Of a stretch of DNA of 34,167 nucleotides, positions 13,520-25,758 are shown piece after piece. The DNA is from Pseudomonadota bacterium (lineage in GTDB: Bacteria; Pseudomonadota; Alphaproteobacteria; Acetobacterales; Acetobacteraceae). A model generated the notes under the pieces. The model did no database searches. It was given only the letters and a program-made list of their open reading frames with translations, and had not been told where the DNA came from. The stretch covers positions 1-34,167 of the forward strand of contig JAJZFB010000058.1 of the NCBI GenBank assembly GCA_021805545.1, given 5' to 3'. Numbering within the stretch: the first letter of the stretch is position 1; each line of letters starts with the position of its first letter. The position numbers and the translations under genes were made by a program.

Positions 13520-14481
13520 TGCTGGGATTTGCCCTTGGCCTGATTGCCACATTGCTGCATGCGGCCTTGGTGTTTGCCGCGGCCCCCTTGGTGGCGGGGG
13601 TGGTGGGTAAAATCCGCGCCTGGGCGCTGGGGCGGCGCGGCGCGCCTGTGTGGCAGCCTTATTTGCAGCTTTATAAATTGCTGCGGAAATCCACGCTGGT
13701 GCCGGAGACGGCGACGGAGCTGTTCGCGCTTTGGCCGGTGGCGTGCTTTCTGGCCACTGCCGTTGCAATGCTGCTGGTGCCTTCGTTCTGCACGGGTATG
13801 CTTACCGCCCCGCTGGGGGATTTCATTACGCTAATCGGGCTGTTCGCCATTGCGCGCGCGGCCACCATGCTGGGCGGCATGGAGACGGGGTTTGGCTTTG
13901 GCGGCGCGGGGGCGGGGCGCGAGGTTTTGTTCTCGATTTTTGCCGAGGCTGCTTTGCTTGTGGCGCTGCTGTGCTTTGTGCTGCTGGCGCATGGGGCCAC
14001 GGTGGATGGCATCGCCGTGGCGTTTGACACGCAGCATATCGGTATTTCCGTTTCTCTGGGCTTTGCGCTGGCCGCCTTGCTGGCGGTGGCGCTGACGGAA
14101 ACGGGGCGGATTCCCACCGATAACCCTTCCGGGCACCTGGAACTGGCCATGGTGCATGAGGCGATGCTGCTGGAATATTCCGGACGGTTTCTGCTGCTGT
14201 TCGAATATGCCGCCATGCTGCGGCTGCTGCTATGGATGGATTTGATCGGCGCGATTTTCATCCCCTTCCGGCTGGGGCAGGCGGGGGATGTGTTTTCCTG
14301 GCCTGGCGGGCTGCTGTTATGGGTGTTGAAGATTGGCGCGATGGCGGTGGTGTTGCCATTGTTCGAGGTGTCCACGGCCAAGATGCGCGTGTTCCGCGTG
14401 CCGGAATTTCTGGGCGCGGCCATGCTGCTTGGGTTTCTGGCCAGCGTGTTTTTGTTTGTGGCGGCGAGGATCGGCTCATGA
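13519..14481 (+). CDS. hyfC: HyfC-like subunit (NuoH/HycD family)
   Basis: Membrane subunit linking the catalytic arm to the pump modules, 320 residues, counterpart of complex I NuoH and formate hydrogenlyase HycD. The family stretch ETGRIPTDNPSGHLE then MVHEAMLLEYSGR is intact, as are the N-terminal VGKIRAWALGRRG and the GFGFGGAGAGREVLFS block. The ATG at 13519 overlaps the hyfB stop by one base; a much longer open frame exists upstream, but it only shadows hyfB. The stop overlaps the hyfE start (ATGA). Confidence 0.92.
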   Translation: MLGFALGLIATLLHAALVFAAAPLVAGVVGKIRAWALGRRGAPVWQPYLQLYKLLRKSTLVPETATELFALWPVACFLATAVAMLLVPSFCTGMLTAPLGDFITLIGLFAIARAATMLGGMETGFGFGGAGAGREVLFSIFAEAALLVALLCFVLLAHGATVDGIAVAFDTQHIGISVSLGFALAALLAVALTETGRIPTDNPSGHLELAMVHEAMLLEYSGRFLLLFEYAAMLRLLLWMDLIGAIFIPFRLGQAGDVFSWPGGLLLWVLKIGAMAVVLPLFEVSTAKMRVFRVPEFLGAAMLLGFLASVFLFVAARIGS

Positions 14482-15137
14482 GCCTGACCTTCTCGCTCGC
14501 GCATCTCATGGGCGGCATTGTGCTGCTTTGCGGGTTTCTGCTGCTCTCGCAACGGCGGCTGGCGGCGATGATTACGCTGTACCAGATACAGGCCTGCGTG
14601 CTGGCGGCGGCCGCGTTCTGGCAGGGCTGGGCGCAGCATGAGCTTAATTTATATCTCACCGGTATTATCACGCTGGCGCTGAAGGGGCTGCTGCTGCCTT
14701 ACGGGCTGCGCCAGATTGTGTTGCGCTTTAATCTGCGCCGCGCGGTGGAGAGCGGGATGGGCATGGCGCTGTCGCTTATTTTAGGTGTGGGGCTGATTGG
14801 CATTGCCGTGCTGGTGGTGCTGCCGAGCACGATGCGCGCTGTTTCGCTCACGCGCGAGGATCTGGCCATTGCGCTCTCGGTGGTGTTGCTGGGGCTGCTG
14901 GTGATGGTGAGCCGGCGCAGCGCGCTGGCGCAGATTATCGGCTTTCTCTCGACCGAAAACGGGCTGGTGCTGGCGGCTATTGGTATGCCGGGCATGCCAT
15001 TCGTGGCGGAGTTTTCCGTGGCGCTGCTGGTGCTGCTGGCGTTTCTGGTGGTGGGGGTGTTCCTGCTGCGCATCAGGGAGCATTTCGACACGCTGGATGT
15101 GACCGGCATAGAAGCGATTGAGAGGCGCGGGCGATGA
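14478..15137 (+). CDS. hyfE: HyfE-like membrane subunit
   Basis: Small membrane subunit of 219 residues with about six or seven hydrophobic segments, related to HyfE and distantly to NuoK. Recognised from the N-terminal HLMGGIVLLCGFLLLSQRRL, the central LYLTGIITLALKGLLLPYGL and the C-terminal IIGFLSTENGLVLAAIGMPG. ATG 14478 lies in the ATGA overlap with hyfC, and the end overlaps hyfF in the same way, so expression is stoichiometrically coupled. Confidence 0.9.
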   Translation: MSLTFSLAHLMGGIVLLCGFLLLSQRRLAAMITLYQIQACVLAAAAFWQGWAQHELNLYLTGIITLALKGLLLPYGLRQIVLRFNLRRAVESGMGMALSLILGVGLIGIAVLVVLPSTMRAVSLTREDLAIALSVVLLGLLVMVSRRSALAQIIGFLSTENGLVLAAIGMPGMPFVAEFSVALLVLLAFLVVGVFLLRIREHFDTLDVTGIEAIERRGR

Positions 15138-16582
15138 TTCTGCTGCCCATTTTCCTGCCGTTTGCGGGCGCGCTGGCGCTGGGGTTGTGGGGCACGCCGC
15201 GCGTGGGGGCTATTGCCAATGCGGGGCTGAGCTTGGTGGTGTTTCTGCTTACGCTGGCGGTGTTTGCGGCACCTGGGCATGGGCTGATTCATGCCGATGG
15301 GCTGGGGCTGCTGTTTGGCGCGCTTACCGGGTTCATCGGGCTTACAACGTCCCTGGCCAATATAGCCTATGTGCGCGAGGCGGAGGCGCGGCTGCGCCCC
15401 GTGCTGTGGCGGCTATACCATGCGCTGTGTCAGGTGGTGCTGGGGGCCACGCTGCTGGGGCTGTATGCCGATAATATCGGGCTGCTTTGGGCGGCGGTGG
15501 AAGGTGCCACGATCGCCGCCACGCTGGCGGTGAGCCTGCCGCGCACCGCCTCGGCGCTGGAGGCGGCGTGGAAATATTTTATCCTCGGCGGCGTGGGGAT
15601 TGGGCTGGCGTTGTTTGGCACCATGCTGGTGTATCTGGCCGCGCAGCCGGCGCTGGGGCCGGGGTTTCCGGCCATGAGTTTTGCGGCACTTTCGGCCCAT
15701 GCGGCCAAGATGGATGGCTCGCTGCTGACTCTGGCGTTTGTGTTCATTCTGTTCGGGTACGGTACCAAGGCGGCTTTGGTGCCGCTGCATGGCTGGCTGC
15801 CTGATACCTATGCGGAAGGCCCGGCGCCGCTGACAGCGGCATTCTCTGGCCCGCTGCTGAATCTGGCGCTGATCGCCATTTTGCGGTTCCGGCATTTGCT
15901 GCAGGTGAATGTGGCGGCGGGCGGGGCGGCAATGGCGCCAGGGCCGTTTTTGCTCACACTCGGGCTGGCTTCGCTGTTTCTGGCGGGTTTCTCATTCACG
16001 CGGCGGCGCGATGCCAGGCGGTTTTTCGGGTTTTCGTCCATCGAGCATTCCGGCATCGCGGCGTTTGCGTTTGGTATTGGCGGGCCGGCGGCGATATTTG
16101 GCGGGCTGCTGCATATGGTGCTGCAGACGCTGCTGAAATCGGGGTTGTTTATTGCACTGGTGAGCGCGGCGGGGCTGCGCGGCTCGGCGGCCCCGGGGCA
16201 ATATGCGTTTTCGCATCTGCGCGGCATGATTCATTCCAGCAAATATACCGGCTGGATGCTGGGGGGCGCGATGTTCGCCCTGGCGGGGCTGCCGCCATCG
16301 GGCTTATTTGTTTCGGAATTCATCATCATCAGCCAGACGGTGCAGCGTAACCCCTGGGTCTCTCTACCGCTGGGGCTGGGGCTGCTGCTTTGCGCGGCGG
16401 CGATGCTGCGGAATGTGGGGCCGCTGGTTTTCGGCCCCGCGCCGCCGCATACCAAAGCGCATAAGGCGGGGGCAGAGATGCACCTGGTGGCGCTGCATCT
16501 GGCGCTGGTGGCGGGGCTGGCTTTTGCCATGCCGGGGCCGGTGCTGGCGCTGTTTTCATCTGTTTCGGGGGCGCTGCAATGA
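15134..16582 (+). CDS. hyfF: HyfF-like proton-translocating membrane subunit
   Basis: Second antiporter-like pump subunit, 482 residues, about 14 hydrophobic segments. Key family residues remain: E123 (WAAVEGATI), K147 (AWKYFI), K212 (YGTKAALVPLHGWLPD), H219, the SSIEHSGI motif and K in TLLKSGLFI. That suggests the proton path is intact. It overlaps hyfE and hyfG by ATGA at both ends (15134 and 16579). The complex therefore keeps two pump modules like group 4 hydrogenases of the Hyf type. Confidence 0.92.
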   Translation: MILLPIFLPFAGALALGLWGTPRVGAIANAGLSLVVFLLTLAVFAAPGHGLIHADGLGLLFGALTGFIGLTTSLANIAYVREAEARLRPVLWRLYHALCQVVLGATLLGLYADNIGLLWAAVEGATIAATLAVSLPRTASALEAAWKYFILGGVGIGLALFGTMLVYLAAQPALGPGFPAMSFAALSAHAAKMDGSLLTLAFVFILFGYGTKAALVPLHGWLPDTYAEGPAPLTAAFSGPLLNLALIAILRFRHLLQVNVAAGGAAMAPGPFLLTLGLASLFLAGFSFTRRRDARRFFGFSSIEHSGIAAFAFGIGGPAAIFGGLLHMVLQTLLKSGLFIALVSAAGLRGSAAPGQYAFSHLRGMIHSSKYTGWMLGGAMFALAGLPPSGLFVSEFIIISQTVQRNPWVSLPLGLGLLLCAAAMLRNVGPLVFGPAPPHTKAHKAGAEMHLVALHLALVAGLAFAMPGPVLALFSSVSGALQ

Positions 16583-17964
16583 GGCTGCTTTCGCCAGAGG
16601 ATTGGGCCGCGCACCAGGGCAGGTTTGTTGCGCTGTGGACGGATGCGAACCACGCCTACGCGCTGTACCAGCCGCAGGAGCTGGTGGCGGTGGCGCTGGA
16701 TAATGGCGCCTATCCGGCACTGCCGCATAAGGGCGCGGCGTGGTTTCAGCGCCTGGCGTTTGATTTGCATGGGCATTTTGATTTGCATGGGCATAAGGCC
16801 GTGGGCGCGGCGGATACGCGGCCTGCGGTGGAGCACCACCGTGCCGCCGATTTTACCGCGCCCTGGCCGGAATTTGTCTCGCCCGGGGGCGAGGGGGTGT
16901 ATCAGGTGGCGGTGGGGCCGGTGCATGCGGGCATTATCGAGCCGGGGCATTTCCGTTTTTCCGTGCGGGGCGAAGAGGTTTTACGGCTGGAGGTGCGGCT
17001 GGGCTACGCGCATAAGGGCACGCTGGGGCTGATGCGCGGCAAATCGCCGCGTTTGGCGGCGCGTTACGCGGCCAGGGTTTCCGGCGATGCCACGGTGGCG
17101 CATAGCCTGGCGTTTGCGCAGGCGGCGGAAAGCGCGCTGGGGGTAAGCGCACCGGGCCGGGCGGTGTTTCTGCGCGGCATTATGGCGGAGCTGGAGCGGC
17201 TGGCGAACCATACATCGGATATTGGCGCCATTGCCGGGGATGCGGGGTTTGCGTTTTTGGATGCGCGCTTTGCCCTGGCGCGCGAGACGATTTGCGCCGC
17301 CAGCGCCGCCGCGTTTGGCCACAGGCTGATGATGGATATTGTGGTGCCGGGCGGCGTGGCGGGGGATTTGGCCGAGGGGGGGGCAGAGGCGATTCTGGAC
17401 GCGCTGGCGGCGCTGGAGGCGGAGCTGCCCAGCCTGACCCGCGTGTTCGAGGATTATGCCAGTTTGCAGGACCGGGTGATTGGCACAGGCATCATTCCGC
17501 CTGCCCTGGCGGAGGCATTCCATGCGGGCGGGTATGTGGGCCGTGCCTCTGGGCAGCAGCAGGATGCGCGGGTGATGCCAGGGTATCCGCCTTACCAGAG
17601 CATGGCGCTGTATGTGCCGGTGTTTCAGGAAGGCGATGTAGCGGCGCGGATACGCGTGCGGCTGGAGGAAATTCCAGAGAGTATAAGGCTGGTGCGCGAC
17701 ATGCTGGCGGCGCTGCCCGAAGGCCCGCTGGCGCTGGCGCTGCCGCCGGAAAGCGGCATGGGGCTGGGCGTGGCGGAGAGTTTCCGCGGGCCGGTGTGGC
17801 ATTGGCTGAGTATTGAGGGCGGGGCCATTGCCGCCGCTTTTATAGCCGATGCCTCCACCCTGCATTGGCCGCTGCTGGAGCAGGCGGCCACCACAGCGAT
17901 TCTGGCCGATTTTCCGATGATTAATAAGTCGCTCAATGGCTCTTATTCAGGCGTGGATTTGTAG
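16579..17964 (+). CDS. hyfG: HyfG-like large subunit lacking all NiFe cysteines (Ehr-type)
   Basis: Fusion of a NuoC-like N-terminal domain (about 1-100) and a NuoD/NiFe-large-subunit domain, 461 residues. The family block VGPVHAGIIEPGHFRFS (112-128) is clear. Where hydrogenases have C-G-I-C, this protein reads RVSGDATVAHS (166-176): S168 and A171 replace the ligands. At the C-terminus, where hydrogenases have D-P-C-x-x-C, it reads NGSYSGVD: S455 and G458. The only cysteine in the protein is C239. A NiFe centre therefore cannot form in the usual way. This matches energy-converting hydrogenase-related (Ehr) complexes, whose reaction is unknown. A perfect 18-bp duplication encodes FDLHGH twice (61-72). 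Confidence 0.88.
   Translation: MRLLSPEDWAAHQGRFVALWTDANHAYALYQPQELVAVALDNGAYPALPHKGAAWFQRLAFDLHGHFDLHGHKAVGAADTRPAVEHHRAADFTAPWPEFVSPGGEGVYQVAVGPVHAGIIEPGHFRFSVRGEEVLRLEVRLGYAHKGTLGLMRGKSPRLAARYAARVSGDATVAHSLAFAQAAESALGVSAPGRAVFLRGIMAELERLANHTSDIGAIAGDAGFAFLDARFALARETICAASAAAFGHRLMMDIVVPGGVAGDLAEGGAEAILDALAALEAELPSLTRVFEDYASLQDRVIGTGIIPPALAEAFHAGGYVGRASGQQQDARVMPGYPPYQSMALYVPVFQEGDVAARIRVRLEEIPESIRLVRDMLAALPEGPLALALPPESGMGLGVAESFRGPVWHWLSIEGGAIAAAFIADASTLHWPLLEQAATTAILADFPMINKSLNGSYSGVDL
16759..16794 (+). repeat. 18-bp perfect tandem duplication inside hyfG
   Basis: The unit TTTGATTTGCATGGGCAT occurs twice back to back (16759-16776, 16777-16794), adding six residues (FDLHGH) in frame. Identity at every base suggests a recent slippage event, in a region where relatives usually have one copy of the D-L-x-G-H motif (from memory of the family). 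Confidence 0.85.
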
Positions 17965-17966
17965 GG

Positions 17967-18518
17967 ATGGTTTGGAAAACAATTATCTCGCACATAAGTG
18001 TTAAGGCCGCGCCGGGGCTTAAGGCCAGCCCGGAGCAGGTGAAAGAGATGCGCGCCCGGCTGGCGGCGGCGGGCGCGCGCAAGCTGGGCCGGGCGCTGGC
18101 CATCCGGCATGTGGCGGCGGGAAGTTGCAATGGCTGCGAGCTGGAGCTGCGCGCGACGCAGAACTTAATTTACGACCTGACCCAATACGGGCTGAGCTTT
18201 ACCCCCAGCCCCCGCCATGCGGATATTTTGCTGATTACAGGCGCCGCCGGGCGCAACATGATAGATGCCGTCCGGCAGGCCCGTGCCGCCATGCCGGACC
18301 CGGTGCTGGTGGTGGCCTGTGGCGATTGCGCCTTGGATGGCGGGGTGTTCAAAGGCTCGCCCGCTATTGCCGGTGGGGCGGGCGCCATAACCCAAATCGA
18401 CCTGACCATTCCCGGCTGCCCCCCAAGCCCGGCGCAGATCGTGCAGGCCTTGGTCACGCTCCTGGAAGCGCATGGGGAGAGTTTGACGGGGCGGTTACGG
18501 CCGAGGGTGCGGGAGTGA
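17967..18518 (+). CDS. hyfI: HyfI-like Fe-S subunit (NuoB/HycG family)
   Basis: Electron-transfer subunit of 183 residues holding one [4Fe-4S] cluster next to the active-site subunit. Candidate ligands are all kept: C54-N-G-C57, C118 (ACGDC, with C121 also nearby) and C151 in GCPPSP. The extra N-terminal 45 residues are basic and lack a signal. ATG 17967 follows the hyfG stop by two bases. The intact cluster beside a ligand-less large subunit suggests electrons still reach the HyfG/HyfI interface, as in complex I, where quinone rather than NiFe accepts them. No hyfA/hycB ferredoxin-like, hyp maturation or formate dehydrogenase gene is in the window. Confidence 0.9.
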   Translation: MVWKTIISHISVKAAPGLKASPEQVKEMRARLAAAGARKLGRALAIRHVAAGSCNGCELELRATQNLIYDLTQYGLSFTPSPRHADILLITGAAGRNMIDAVRQARAAMPDPVLVVACGDCALDGGVFKGSPAIAGGAGAITQIDLTIPGCPPSPAQIVQALVTLLEAHGESLTGRLRPRVRE

Positions 18519-20882: not shown

Positions 20883-20915
20883 TAGAGCGTTTCCGATTGA
20901 TCGGAAAATGCTCTA
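20883..20915. repeat. Stem-loop over the 3' end of the ABC/phosphatase-like gene
   Basis: TAGAGC-G-TTTCCGA (20883-20896) pairs with TCGGAAA-AT-GCTCTA (20901-20915) around a TTGA loop, with one bulge. The stop codon of the minus-strand gene (20913-20915) is part of the stem. It may act as terminator or repeat-derived 3' end; similar AGAGC...GCTCT stems occur between genes in other alphaproteobacteria, as far as I recall. Confidence 0.6.
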
Positions 20916-23321
20916 GCGCAGCAGCTTGGGGCCTTGGCCGGTGGCGCGGTGGTGCAGCACGGTTTGCTCCTGCTGCACCTCGAATTCCATGAGGAAATCT
21001 TCCTGCTCATCGGTCTGCACAAATTGCTGGTTGAAGCGGCGGATCTGGCTGAGCGCGGCCTGGGCGGAGAGGCCTTGTTCCTTGACCATGTAGGCGGCCA
21101 GGATGGTGCCGGTGCGGCCCAGGCTGGCATGGCTATGCACGGCCAGAACCTCGCCCTGGTTGAGCAGCTCGTTCATGTGGGCGATGAGCAGATTGGCGGC
21201 ATCCGTTGCGGGGGCGTTCTGCTCGGCGATGGGGAAATACACATTGCGCAGCCCATGGCTTGCCAGCAAATCTTGTGAAAGGTCTTGCTCCGTGAGGGTG
21301 ATGAGCATGGTGATGCCAGCGGCTTTCAGCAGGGCGAGATCGGTCTCGATGGGGGCAGAAAAACCGGGTGCGGGGGTGGCGGCAAGGCGGCCTTCCTCGA
21401 TCCAGACAAAACCACGAGGGCCGGGGGCATTGCTGCCAGGATGGCGGAACACGGCGGCGTTCTCGTAACGCTGCGGGTCCGCCGCCGGGGCTGACATTTG
21501 CGCCGCTGCCGCGCGTGGCGGCAAGGGCACGGATTGCACCATGTTGGCGCTGAGTGCGATGGGGGGCAGGTCGTCTGGCGCGGCAATGTCTTGCAGTTCC
21601 GCCGCCTCGTGCTCCATTTCGATGGTGACGGGCGTGGCGGGGCTGGCATTGAAGTTTACCGGCGCGGTGAGGCGCTCGGCTTCGTCGAGGCCGGGCGTGC
21701 CGGCGTCCTGGGTGAAGACGGGGGCTCCGGCTACTGGCTCTGCGGGCGGGATGGCGGCTGCGGGCTCAAGCGTTTCTTCCAGCTCAAGCGTTTCTTCCTG
21801 GGCCGCGCCCTCCCAGGCTTGCGGCACAGCTTCGTCCGGGGCTTCTGGCATGGTTTCGTCAACGGTGTGCGCGGGCGTCTCGGGTGCGGCTTCGTCCAGC
21901 TCGGCGGCCAGCGTGTTGCGGATTTCGTCCTTTATGGCGGCCAGGGTATCCGGGGTAAGTGGCGTGGGGGTGGCTTGGCCCGCTGAGGGGTGGGATGTGA
22001 TGTCCTCCGCGCCTGGTGGGGTGGCTTGCTCAGGGGCAAAGGCTTCCGGCGCGGGTTCGGAAGCGGGTAGCCCGGGGTGCGGCGCGGTGGCGGGTGCTTC
22101 TGGCTCTGGCGGGGCCCAGGCGGCGGAAAACAGCGGCATGACCGCCGGGATGGGACCAAGCTGGCGGATGGCGCTGGCATCGGGTGCTGGAACATCGCAA
22201 CTGCCGGTGCCGATGAATTGTTCCACGATGGCATTAGGTGGCGCATCGAAAAATTCCGCCGTGCCGCAGGCGGCCTGCACCTGCCCGCCGGCGATGAGGA
22301 GAATCCGGTCTGAGATGCGGCGCGCGTGCTTATGATTTTGCAGTACCAGCAGCAGCGGGGTGAACCCTGCCAGGCTTTGCAGCAGGGCGAGCAGGGTGGA
22401 GGCCTCGGCCTCGTTCAGCCCTTGGGCGGGCTCGTCCAGCAGCAGCAGGGCGGGTTCGGCCGCAGCTTCGCGCAGGATGGTGACGATGCGTTGCGACAAC
22501 GGATCCAGCGCCATGAAGGGCTGGTCGAGCTGTCCGGCAAGATGCCCGGCCCCGGCCTGGCTCAGCCAGCCAGCGGCCCATTGGCGCTGTTTGTCCTCGG
22601 CCATGTGCCCGGTACGGCCGCGCAGATGGAATAAGAGGTTTTCCAGCACCGTGCTTTGGACCAGCGGGGCGCGCTGGGTGACGAGCAGCGGGCGGTTTTC
22701 CGCCGTGAGCGGCGCGCCGCGGAACCAGGCATGGCCCCATTCGTGGAACAGCCCGCTTTGCCCGAGCGCGCCGCCCAGGGCGCGCAGCAAGGTGGACCTG
22801 CCGGAATTGGCCGGACCCATGATCGTGGTAATGCCGTGGTCCGGCACGGCGAAGCTCATATCAGTGAGCACCAGCTTGGGGCCGAATGCGGCGCCGTAAC
22901 CGTTGCAGAGCAGAATGGGACGAATGGCCGCGAAAGCCGGGGCGCTAAAGGCGGGGGCGATGAAAACGGGCTCGGGAATTTCCGCGGCTGGGGGGTGCTG
23001 GGGAATGAGGGCGGCGTCTCCGGTTGTTTCCAGCGGGGCGGCGCCCATGGCGGTGGCTTCCGTGGGCGCTGCTTCCGGGCGGGTAGCTTCCGCCATCATG
23101 GGGGCAGGGGTTTCCTCCAGCGCGGGGGCTTCTTGCGGCTGCTGGAAGCGTGACGTATCGATCGGCTGGTTTTGTGCCTCAATCCGGCGGCTGTTGCGGC
23201 GCACCACGCCAAGCGCGATGAGGACGATGCCCAGAAGGAACACGCCCAATGCCGCGTACAGAACGATCGTTTCTTGGGTCAAGGTGCGGGTTGCCCCGAG
23301 AATTGTGAACATTGGCCTCAT
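20913..23321 (-). CDS. Membrane-anchored fusion of a degenerate PstB-like ABC ATPase and a Cys-less dual-specificity phosphatase domain
   Basis: 802 residues. One transmembrane helix (17-40) is followed by RRNSRR, placing the rest in the cytoplasm; then a Pro/Ala/Glu linker, a PstB-like ATPase domain (about 133-375), a long acidic Pro/Ala-rich linker (376-630) and a phosphatase domain (about 635-785). The Walker A is GPANSGRST (169-177) with R175 for Lys; the signature LSGGQ is LDPLS; the switch His is Q328; Walker B LLLLDEP with D296/E297 and the Q-loop remain. The phosphatase loop is HSHASLGRTG: S730 replaces the catalytic Cys of H-C-x5-R, while R736 is kept. Both domains look inactive or altered. 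ATG 23312 is an alternative start with GAGG upstream. Confidence 0.85.
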   Translation of the reverse strand: MRPMFTILGATRTLTQETIVLYAALGVFLLGIVLIALGVVRRNSRRIEAQNQPIDTSRFQQPQEAPALEETPAPMMAEATRPEAAPTEATAMGAAPLETTGDAALIPQHPPAAEIPEPVFIAPAFSAPAFAAIRPILLCNGYGAAFGPKLVLTDMSFAVPDHGITTIMGPANSGRSTLLRALGGALGQSGLFHEWGHAWFRGAPLTAENRPLLVTQRAPLVQSTVLENLLFHLRGRTGHMAEDKQRQWAAGWLSQAGAGHLAGQLDQPFMALDPLSQRIVTILREAAAEPALLLLDEPAQGLNEAEASTLLALLQSLAGFTPLLLVLQNHKHARRISDRILLIAGGQVQAACGTAEFFDAPPNAIVEQFIGTGSCDVPAPDASAIRQLGPIPAVMPLFSAAWAPPEPEAPATAPHPGLPASEPAPEAFAPEQATPPGAEDITSHPSAGQATPTPLTPDTLAAIKDEIRNTLAAELDEAAPETPAHTVDETMPEAPDEAVPQAWEGAAQEETLELEETLEPAAAIPPAEPVAGAPVFTQDAGTPGLDEAERLTAPVNFNASPATPVTIEMEHEAAELQDIAAPDDLPPIALSANMVQSVPLPPRAAAAQMSAPAADPQRYENAAVFRHPGSNAPGPRGFVWIEEGRLAATPAPGFSAPIETDLALLKAAGITMLITLTEQDLSQDLLASHGLRNVYFPIAEQNAPATDAANLLIAHMNELLNQGEVLAVHSHASLGRTGTILAAYMVKEQGLSAQAALSQIRRFNQQFVQTDEQEDFLMEFEVQQEQTVLHHRATGQGPKLLR

Positions 23322-23602: not shown

Positions 23603-24634
23603 ATGGGCAAGACGAAGACAAAAGAAAACAAGAAAGACGATAAGGACAATAAGGCGGCGGAGGGCAAGAACGCCAGAAAGAAGGACAAGCCCAACGGCAA
23701 ACCCAAGGCTGGCATGAAGGCCAGGCCGCCGGAGCCCGAGGCGCTTTCCGCCCCGGACGCCGCGCGCCTTTATGCCGACGGCACGCCGTTCGACCGCGTG
23801 CAATATCTGGAAGCCAAGCTCATTTTGAAACCGGAGCGCTTTACCTCCGTGCAGAGTTTCCGCAGCTTTGGCAAAATTGTGCAGCGCACCGCCAGGCGCC
23901 TTGGGGTTGGTTTTATGGATGATCCCAAAGCCGGTTTGCGGCCCGAAATCCGCGAGGTGACATTTTTCGATACGCCTGATTTCGCACTTTATAATAACGC
24001 CTTCATTCTGCGGCGGCGTATTTCTTATGTGGATGGCTTTCCCGTTGGCGACCCCGAAATTGTATGCAAATTCCGCCACCCGGACGAGACGCTGGCCGCG
24101 GCGATGGATATGCGCCCCAAGATTCAGGGTACCTACCGCATCAAGTTCAAATCCGAGGTGCTGCCGCTGAAGAATGAGATTGGCGGTTTTCGCCGGCTAT
24201 TCTCGCATAATTGCCAGTTTGGCCTCAGCCAGACGCGCGATGGCGACAGAACCTCGCTGGCCGCGCTGAGCCGCGCCTTCCCCGGTATCGCCATGCTCAA
24301 CCGCCCCGGGACCGAGCATGTTAGGCTGGTGAATGAGGGGATTGTGGAGGAGGTGCTGCTGCCGCTGGGCAGGCTGGATTTTGGCCAGGGCGCCGTTGGT
24401 AAATGCGATGTCTCGCTCTGGCGCACGCGCGGCGAGCATAAGCCGCTTGTCGGCGAGTTTGCCTTCCAGGTGAAGTTCGCCCGCCGCGAGGATATTGGCT
24501 CTCCACCGCGCAAACTTGGTGCCCAGTTTTACGCCGTATTGCAGCACGAGGTTGCCGATTGGCTGCTGCTGGGCATGACCAAAACGGCGATGGTCTACCG
24601 CCTTAACGGCATATTGCCGTCCAGCCATGAGTGA
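23603..24634 (+). CDS. CYTH-like (triphosphate tunnel metalloenzyme-type) protein with Lys-rich tail
   Basis: 343 residues, not firmly recognised. The first 45 or so residues are extremely Lys/Asp/Asn-rich (KTKTKENKKDDKDNK), likely disordered. From about 65 on, the pattern resembles a CYTH/VTC beta-tunnel: YLEAKLILK (68-76) like the E-x-E-x-K start, FFDTPDFALYNNAFILRRR (121-139) like the 'Y-D-T-x-x-x-L' and Arg strands, EIVCKFR (152-158), and later VGEFAFQVKF. Such domains hydrolyse triphosphates, cAMP precursors or polyphosphate. A strong Shine-Dalgarno GGGAGGAA (23589-23596) supports the start. It overlaps the chromate-transporter gene by 8 bases. The assignment is tentative. Confidence 0.5.
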   Translation: MGKTKTKENKKDDKDNKAAEGKNARKKDKPNGKPKAGMKARPPEPEALSAPDAARLYADGTPFDRVQYLEAKLILKPERFTSVQSFRSFGKIVQRTARRLGVGFMDDPKAGLRPEIREVTFFDTPDFALYNNAFILRRRISYVDGFPVGDPEIVCKFRHPDETLAAAMDMRPKIQGTYRIKFKSEVLPLKNEIGGFRRLFSHNCQFGLSQTRDGDRTSLAALSRAFPGIAMLNRPGTEHVRLVNEGIVEEVLLPLGRLDFGQGAVGKCDVSLWRTRGEHKPLVGEFAFQVKFARREDIGSPPRKLGAQFYAVLQHEVADWLLLGMTKTAMVYRLNGILPSSHE

Positions 24635-25205
24635 GCCTTTGCCCGCGCCGGCGCGCGGCCCGTTGCGTGTCTCGCTCGCGCAGGTATTTCTGCAATTCTT
24701 TATTATTGGCCTCACCAGTTTTGGCGGCCCCGTGCCTTATTTGCGCGGGCGCCTTGTAACAAAATTGCAATGGCTTGATGACAGGGAATTTGTCGAGCTG
24801 CTTTCCATCAGCCAAAGCCTGCCCGGGTTGAATGCGACCAATCTCGCTGTTTTGGTGGGAGAGCGGTTGCGTGGCCCGGCGGGTGCCGCCGCCGCCATTA
24901 TCGCCATTTGCCTGCCAGGCGGGCTGTATATGTTCGGTGCCGGTATTTTCTACCGCATTCATGGCGATCATGCCTGGGTTACAGCGGCGCTGAAAGGCAT
25001 TGCCGCCGCCTCGATCGGGCTTGTTCTCGCCACCGTCGTGCAGCTTGCCGAGCGTTCGCTCAGCGGGCGGGCGGATTTTATTTTCATCGCGCTTACCGTG
25101 CTGGCCGTTAACCGGTTTCATTTCTCGGTGCCGGAGGCGCTGATCGGTGTTGGGCTGACGGCCATCATCTGGCACCGCCCGCGCCGGGCGGCACCCACCG
25201 AATGA
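24627..25205 (+). CDS. Chromate transporter family protein, first half
   Basis: 192-residue membrane protein of the CHR family, short form with one CHR domain. The family start reads FLQFFIIGLTSFGGPVPYLRG, and the signature near 61-72 is ISQSLPGLNATN. Short CHR proteins work as pairs with opposite topology, and the second half follows at 25234. Chromate efflux is known for some members; others may move sulfate-like anions. It overlaps the CYTH-like gene end, so the three genes form an operon. Confidence 0.85.
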   Translation: MSEPLPAPARGPLRVSLAQVFLQFFIIGLTSFGGPVPYLRGRLVTKLQWLDDREFVELLSISQSLPGLNATNLAVLVGERLRGPAGAAAAIIAICLPGGLYMFGAGIFYRIHGDHAWVTAALKGIAAASIGLVLATVVQLAERSLSGRADFIFIALTVLAVNRFHFSVPEALIGVGLTAIIWHRPRRAAPTE

Positions 25206-25233
25206 GCAAGCGCGGCAGTTTAAGCAAAGGCTG

Positions 25234-25758
25234 ATGGATATGGACCAAATCTTCGCGGTTATCCGTGTTTTCGCCTATCTCTCGCTACTGACCGTGGGCG
25301 GCGGCATGGCCGCTTTTCCGGAGATGAAAGCGCAGGTGGTGGGAATTCACCACTGGATGGATTTCACCCAGCTCATCCATTTCTATTCGCTTGGCCAGAT
25401 GGTGCCAGGCCCGAACATGATGATGATTGTGCCCATTGGCGATTGGGCGGCAGGGCCGCTTGGCGCGGTGGCCGCCGTGGCGGCGTTTTTTGGCCCCACG
25501 GCCCTGTTGACCTATGTGGCTGGGCGGTTATGGACGCGCCTGGAAGCCTGGCCGTGGCGGGCCTCCATACAAAAGGGCCTCGCGCCTGTTTCGGTTGGGC
25601 TGCTGCTGGCGGGGTGTTTTACCATGGCGAAAGGCACGATCTCGGGCGTTGAAACGGCGTCCATTTCGGCCGGTGTGCTGTTGATTTTGTTGCAGTATAA
25701 AGTCAATCCCGCTTTGCTTGTGATTGGCGGGGGGATTGTTGGCCTGCTCTCGTTTTGA
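25234..25758 (+). CDS. Chromate transporter family protein, second half
   Basis: 174-residue partner CHR-domain membrane protein. Family landmarks: LTVGGGMAAFPEM (18-30), the signature FYSLGQMVPGPNMMMI (50-65) and FFGPTALLTYVAGRLW. The gene begins 28 bases after its partner; ATG 25234 or 25240 are both possible (M-D-M). A terminator follows at 25790. With the first half it would form a heterodimeric anion transporter in the inner membrane. Confidence 0.86.
   Translation: MDMDQIFAVIRVFAYLSLLTVGGGMAAFPEMKAQVVGIHHWMDFTQLIHFYSLGQMVPGPNMMMIVPIGDWAAGPLGAVAAVAAFFGPTALLTYVAGRLWTRLEAWPWRASIQKGLAPVSVGLLLAGCFTMAKGTISGVETASISAGVLLILLQYKVNPALLVIGGGIVGLLSF

Follow-up and report, generated by a model that had tools for sequence, protein, structure and literature searches.

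A membrane-anchored ABC ATPase-phosphatase fusion with both active sites altered: a double pseudoenzyme, by sequence, in one lineage of Acetobacteraceae

The window analyzed here, the whole 34,167-nucleotide stretch of contig JAJZFB010000058.1, carries on its minus strand an 802-amino-acid open reading frame (positions 20913-23321) in which an ABC ATPase domain and a dual-specificity phosphatase (DSP) domain are joined in one chain and which, judged from its sequence, is a genuine, maintained double pseudoenzyme. The explanation that we favor, and to which we give somewhat better than even chances, is that this gene belongs to a family of ABC-DSP fusions, that both of its sites lost their function on a single ancestral branch, and that the product was kept as a non-catalytic protein. 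Genomes are referred to by labels: G000 is the window genome, and G017, represented by contig JAKBCX010000059.1 (L001) of the metagenome-assembled genome (MAG) ZJ7.bin6, is a second assembly from a different species, which encodes a full-length relative 75-80% identical to the G000 fusion with the same Arg and Ser at the two altered sites. The features of the G000 gene are as follows.

20913-23321, minus strand: whole open reading frame, comprising a transmembrane helix, an ABC domain, a long Pro/Ala/Glu-rich linker and a DSP-type phosphatase domain
23211-23267, minus strand: predicted transmembrane helix (aa 19-37) with an Arg-rich C-terminal flank, from hydropathy
22206-22919, minus strand: ABC ATPase domain (aa about 135-372), PstB-like by best score
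22791-22817, minus strand: Walker A, GPANSGRST (aa 169-177), Arg175 replacing Lys
22488-22508, minus strand: signature position, LDPLSQR (aa 272-278), with LDPLS (272-276) where LSGGQ is expected
22338-22340, minus strand: Gln328 (CAA) at the switch His
20976-21419, minus strand: DSP/PTP-SAK phosphatase domain (aa 635-782), from Pfam and PDB sequence matches
21222-21224, minus strand: Glu700 (GAG) at the general-acid Asp position, from alignment to 25xa and 2img
21108-21140, minus strand: DSP P-loop, VHSHASLGRTG (aa 728-738), Ser730 replacing the catalytic Cys
20913-20915, minus strand: stop codon

Matching starts in G017, G022, G025, and G026 suggest that translation would begin at Met4 (about 23312) rather than at Met1. 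The membrane tether proposed in the initial annotation is borne out by the predicted helix at aa 19-37, which is the most hydrophobic stretch of the protein (mean hydropathy 2.89), a second and marginal stretch lying near aa 309 within the ABC domain. By the same measure a helix is present in all 12 fusions of the genus, weakly in G031, and none exceeds the threshold in the ABC-only protein of G005 or in the more distant fusions of G890, G993, and G896. Both domains score above the Pfam cut-offs: the ABC domain matches ABC_tran (PF00005; 36.7 bits against 25, best stretch aa 152-299), and the DSP domain matches PTP-SAK (PF22784; 54.5 against 27) and DSPc (PF00782; 37.7 against 33.5), its nearest solved chains by sequence being 25xa and DUSP23 (2img, 4erc). 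No Pfam or NCBIfam model among the matches listed covers the whole fusion.

Key residues were tabulated across 16 ABC and 15 DSP domains of the family, with the Walker A Lys, LSGGQ, and switch His assigned by alignment with the canonical PstB of the same genome. The codons and this alignment confirmed the substitutions called earlier from the single sequence, namely Arg175 for the Walker A Lys (AGG, 22797-22799, minus strand), LDPLS for LSGGQ, and Gln328 for the switch His in the ABC domain, and Ser730 for the catalytic Cys (AGC, 21132-21134, minus strand) in the DSP domain, where HSHASLGR stands in place of the HCX5R motif. Tabulating positions 175, 328, and 730 in homologs with the same domain order, the check that the initial annotation had proposed, placed Arg and Ser in G000 and G017 only. 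The Walker A Lys is retained in 14 of the 16 ABC domains, and the catalytic Cys in 13 of the 15 DSP domains; the Asp that aligns with Glu700 in 25xa and DUSP23, which we take to be the general acid, is likewise found in 13 of 15, with Glu confined to the same two genomes. Since Arg, Ser, and Glu occur nowhere else, the losses of Lys, Cys, and Asp are placed on one branch. Two more Walker A residues are changed in these two proteins: residue 172 is Asn instead of the Gly of the 14 others, and residue 173 is Ser instead of Thr, a Ser that one intact member shares. Other elements are preserved: the Walker B Asp-Glu pair (LLLLDEPA in G000) in 16/16 ABC domains, and His729, Arg736, Thr737, and Gly738 of the P-loop in 15/15 DSP domains. 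The G000 phosphatase domain is thus of the DUSP23-like/PTP-SAK kind by sequence (PF22784, PF22785; 25xa, 2img) but lacks the Cys and acid Asp that are both intact in 13 of the 15 family members read.

The ABC changes differ in age. LSGGQ was found in none of the 16 ABC domains read, the nearest approaches being LSTVQ in G890 and LSPVQ in G993, in which L, S, and Q are retained. The switch His is present in ten ABC domains and replaced by Gln in six (G000, G017, G022, G025, G026, and G005), so that Gln328 is common to three full-length relatives with intact Lys and Cys and to the ABC-only protein of G005. On this distribution, the ABC domain, as read, is unconventional family-wide and the Gln predates the window lineage; it is the change of Lys to Arg and of Cys to Ser, together with Asp to Glu, that is special to the window lineage.

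The fusion family is narrowly distributed. In a sample of 38 genomes of the genus, 13 including G000 matched the G000 fusion at E 1e-20, and 12 of them contain both domains, although in G015 these lie on two contigs and were not seen in one open reading frame. The thirteenth, G005, has only a 362-codon ABC part (L031:9339-10424), in which the Walker A Lys is kept and the Q-loop Gln is changed to Pro; it sits on a long branch and is likely decaying or shortened. The other 25 genomes gave no match at E 1e-20, some of these assemblies being incomplete. In the family sample, 3 of 150 genomes matched at E 1e-30, each of them a member of the window's genus. A DSP profile at E 1e-20 matched 8 of 395 genomes of the order sample, all from the window's genus, and 1 of 385 of the class sample, the window's own genome. 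With a profile built from alignment A1 and E 1e-12, 9 of 398 genomes of the phylum sample matched: the window's own, five in which the open frame is short (166-215 aa; two were read), and three with new ABC-DSP fusions of 492-538 aa and intact Cys and Lys (G890, G993, and G896), which carry the same phylum label and are taken to belong to another class. Whole-protein tblastn against plasmids matched two records, in the DSP part only; the G890 fusion as query gave hits in 2267 plasmid records, though never across 80% or more of its length, and no fusion match was found in viral contigs. The architecture, for which the initial annotation knew of no described system, is not unique, given the intact fusions in the genus and in another class, but appears undescribed in the open-access PMC literature, where we found no account of an ABC-DSP fusion. 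An active paralog as the regulated target was considered and set aside: the two further PTP-SAK matches in the G000 genome are weak and below the cut-off, and come from unrelated phosphatase-like proteins with no ABC part in the frames read.

In many members, the fusion gene is accompanied by a small partner gene (product of about 140 aa) located directly downstream, as in G003, G014, G015, G020, G030, G031, G890, G993, and G896, that is, in 9 of 13 intact fusions or 9 of 15 fusion genomes. The genus search at E 1e-8 found no partner in G000, G017, G022, G025, or G026, and in G018 it matched only elsewhere in the genome; partners or paralogs occur in 7 of the 38 genus genomes. Seven of the eight other copies are 58-96% identical to the G020 copy, the G993 copy having been compared by BLAST only, and the protein has no match in Pfam, NCBIfam, or PDB. 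Members of this unannotated family, which adjoins ABC-DSP fusions and has paralogs elsewhere too, lie at L030:8583-9074, L037:8489-8911, L141:8745-9164, and L143:10139-10624. A Roadblock-type identity for the partner was rejected, the likeness being by eye and finding nothing in Pfam, NCBIfam, or PDB; profile comparison of the partner with a candidate Roadblock-like neighbor gave a probability of 3.5. The small proteins that do resemble Roadblock/LC7 by eye (L148:9467-9832 and L152:9216-9626) stand beside a partner paralog, and one of them has only a weak LAMTOR5 match in Pfam. A distant relative of the partner (about 37% identity) occurs in five Ruegeria plasmid records, two of which were opened: in one, it sits within a group of dynamin-family genes, after which come genes for a Ser/Thr kinase and an FHA protein and one with a PP2C annotation; the other has the same dynamin genes and a kinase ahead of the end of the stretch. 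The kinase and FHA assignments are backed by Pfam, and this context suggests, by association only, a link of the partner with phospho-signaling.

The G000 fusion is flanked by a convergent VTT-domain gene and a divergent, unannotated 343-aa open reading frame (23603-24634, plus strand) that has no Pfam or PDB match and resembles CYTH-type enzymes by eye. The lepA gene lies 0.3 to 4.5 kb upstream of the fusion in the same direction in G003, G014, G020, and G031, and 4.3 kb upstream in the opposite direction in G000. The window also contains a split-type chromate transporter pair (24627-25758, plus strand; the first half assigned by Pfam, the second by position and eye) and a run of open reading frames resembling, by eye, a hydrogenase-4/NADH-dehydrogenase-like membrane complex (about 14232-18518, plus strand), part of which is found upstream of the fusion in G017 too. 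FUSC/HlyD efflux genes near several relatives are probably a separate unit, a FUSC homolog being located elsewhere in the window genome (C17:81445-83439).

In the fusion gene tree, G000 and G017 are placed beside G025 and G026, and then G022, with supports of 98 to 100; trees of the single-domain proteins also unite G000 with G017 (100), their neighbors being less resolved (55 to 76). A lepA tree of 29 of the 38 genomes, rooted at the midpoint and with G017 and G018 among the nine absent, groups the fusion genomes in one subclade together with G001, G011, G012, G029, G033, and G034, none of which gave a fusion match in the genus search at E 1e-20. The presence of fusionless genomes inside this subclade suggests several losses, some of the genomes concerned being incomplete. 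Unlike in the fusion tree, G000 is not beside G025 and G026 in the lepA tree, where the nodes around it are weak (56 to 83).

The G000-G017 pair provides a direct view of evolution after the residue losses. Its dN/dS (Nei-Gojobori) is 0.141 for the ABC domain (dS 0.40) and 0.114 for the DSP domain (dS 0.45). Intact pairs gave, for ABC and DSP, respectively, 0.146 and 0.118 (G003-G030), 0.168 and 0.058 (G015-G020), 0.266 and 0.377 (G025-G026), 0.302 and 0.192 (G022-G026), and 0.270 and 0.159 (G003-G014), the last three being more distant pairs, below which the G000-G017 values fall (0.27-0.30 for ABC, 0.16-0.38 for DSP). The linkers are looser, with dN of 0.24 and 0.29 versus 0.05 in each domain, which raises dN of the whole protein to 0.12 (dS 0.55); dN is 0.016-0.036 for four neighboring genes compared between these two genomes, so the fusion gene still evolves faster than its neighbors. 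On the branch ancestral to G000 and G017, 14 of 88 otherwise-invariant ABC positions and 13 of 104 such DSP positions changed, compared with 0-4 for eight other tips or pairs, a rough count in which G005 was left out, the reference sets for the other clades contained G000 and G017, and branch lengths differ. Within motif stretches, which were picked after viewing the alignment, fell 9 of the 14 ABC changes (Fisher one-sided p 0.009) and 5 of the 13 DSP changes (p 0.020). The pN/pS ratios of G000 and G017 against G022, G025, and G026 are 0.47-0.60 for ABC and 0.39-0.57 for DSP, versus 0.36-0.47 and 0.28-0.43 among the latter three; the higher ratios are as compatible with an earlier period of relaxed constraint as with a shift in function. 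Taken together, branch counts, pN/pS, and dN/dS indicate that the ancestral branch was fast and that later evolution was constrained.

These data bear on the strongest rival, early pseudogenization, in which the G000 locus would be decaying after the loss of its partner and its use. The absence of the partner gene, a neighborhood unlike that of the relatives, the many genus members in which the fusion was not found, its reduction in G005, and the faster ancestral branch all fit such a course. We nevertheless consider it unlikely: neither the G000 nor the G017 copy has an internal stop, the domains are much better kept than the linkers, and dN/dS of 0.11-0.14 at dS 0.40-0.45 is no higher than in intact pairs, except for the DSP domain of G015-G020 (0.06). 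Intact close relatives had been named at the outset as the sign of merely local decay; such relatives are indeed present, but the dN/dS values contradict decay. Counting against a maintained binding protein, in turn, the 25 of 38 genus genomes with no match make the gene dispensable in the genus, and the altered state is seen in two genomes only.

It is improbable, though less so than a transport role, that the protein is still an enzyme of altered chemistry, with Ser730 or another nucleophile acting with Glu700 as the acid, or with ATPase activity through Arg175. Cys-to-Ser protein tyrosine phosphatases (PTPs) are standard dead substrate traps, and the nucleophile, the acid, and Walker A have all changed together, which argues against catalysis; the retention of Walker B Asp-Glu and, in the P-loop, of His729 and Arg736 speaks for it, as does the point, made in a review, that catalytic residues may have migrated in some pseudoenzymes (PMC10211241).

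An ABC transporter ATPase subunit, for example for phosphate, is very improbable. PstB is the best curated family for the ABC domain among the matches listed, and the two can be aligned over Walker A, Q-loop, Walker B, and H-loop, so that "PstB-like" holds as a best-scoring label; the domain, however, reaches only 76 bits against the TIGR00972 cut-off of 343.2, is without LSGGQ like all 16 members, has Arg for Lys, and is fused to a phosphatase. A genuine PstB of the window genome, above the cut-off, is encoded at C17:63055-63795, and nothing therefore ties the G000 fusion to phosphate uptake. The dedicated permease partner that had been sought did not materialize, there being no ABC permease among the five window neighbors scanned. 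Sequencing or assembly error at the key codons has a negligible probability, for although G017 is a MAG and the window genome a draft of 96 contigs, the two different species share Arg, Ser, and Glu, their Arg codons differ (AGG and AGA), and many changes are linked; the full-length G017 relative at 75-80% identity also disposes of a chance open reading frame.

Under the favored explanation, of a fusion kept as a non-catalytic protein, conservation after the joint residue losses favors a binding role, and the G000 protein, as far as its sequence tells, probably binds rather than cuts its targets. With Cys and the acid Asp gone, the DSP domain would not hydrolyze phosphate esters, and with Walker A changed from GTGK to NSGR, the ABC domain would have little or no affinity for ATP. 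The phosphate-gripping P-loop, which retains its Arg, may still allow the DSP domain to bind a small ligand or a phosphorylated protein at the inner membrane face, in the manner of STYX, and the fusion could thereby shield, sequester, or scaffold what it holds. In the intact relatives, the ABC domain may be an unconventional nucleotide-sensing element controlling the attached phosphatase; both sites would then have failed together because ATP control is useless once the phosphatase is dead. The joint loss, the separate PstB, and the lack of LSGGQ in any member suggest that the role of the ABC domain, perhaps that of a nucleotide switch, is tied to the phosphatase and not to a transporter. The membrane scaffold for phosphate or phosphoproteins, neither transporter nor enzyme, that the initial annotation envisaged is thus partly supported, by domains devoid of textbook catalytic residues, a predicted anchor, and a protein that was kept.

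Known pseudophosphatases of the DSP fold sequester or shield phosphoproteins (PMC10211241, PMC3507883). STYX, a pseudophosphatase of the dual-specificity kind, sequesters ERK2 and is a competitor of DUSP4 (PMC10211241), and inactive PTP domains act as phosphotyrosine readers (PMC3507883). The G000 fusion resembles STYX and other Cys-less DSP pseudophosphatases of eukaryotes in its DSP fold by sequence, the retained Arg of HCX5R, the lost Cys, and the intact family around it, and, with a Cys-less phosphatase domain under purifying selection, would belong to the STYX-like class. It differs in being bacterial, membrane-anchored by prediction, and fused to an ABC domain whose Walker A Lys was lost on the same branch, and its binding is presumed. 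The substitutions differ as well, with Cys to Ser and Asp to Glu in G000 as opposed to Gly in STYX (PMC10211241, PMC3507883). Bacterial Ser/Thr pseudokinases (PMC12599244) are likewise pseudoenzymes of bacterial phospho-signaling, but have a kinase fold rather than a phosphatase joined to an ABC domain.

A more specific history, based on the fusion tree, is possible, and we offer it tentatively: a bacterial phospho-switch composed of a signature-less ABC domain, a DSP domain, and a small partner may have been turned stepwise into a membrane-tethered double pseudoenzyme that now reads and holds phosphoproteins. In this order, LSGGQ would have disappeared at the outset, the partner and the switch His next, and Lys, Cys, and Asp last, on one branch. 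To our knowledge, few proteins have two unrelated enzyme domains of one chain that lost catalysis on the same branch. Since the genus has fusions in every state, from intact through partly to fully altered, and another class has intact ones, the order of loss is testable with natural proteins. The pseudophosphatases in the literature that we found are eukaryotic, and the G000 fusion would add a bacterial case. Together with its conserved small partner, the intact fusion is an unannotated candidate signaling module, and, if the stepwise reading is true, the natural intermediates would allow a direct test of how two linked active sites can be lost jointly from a protein that remains useful.
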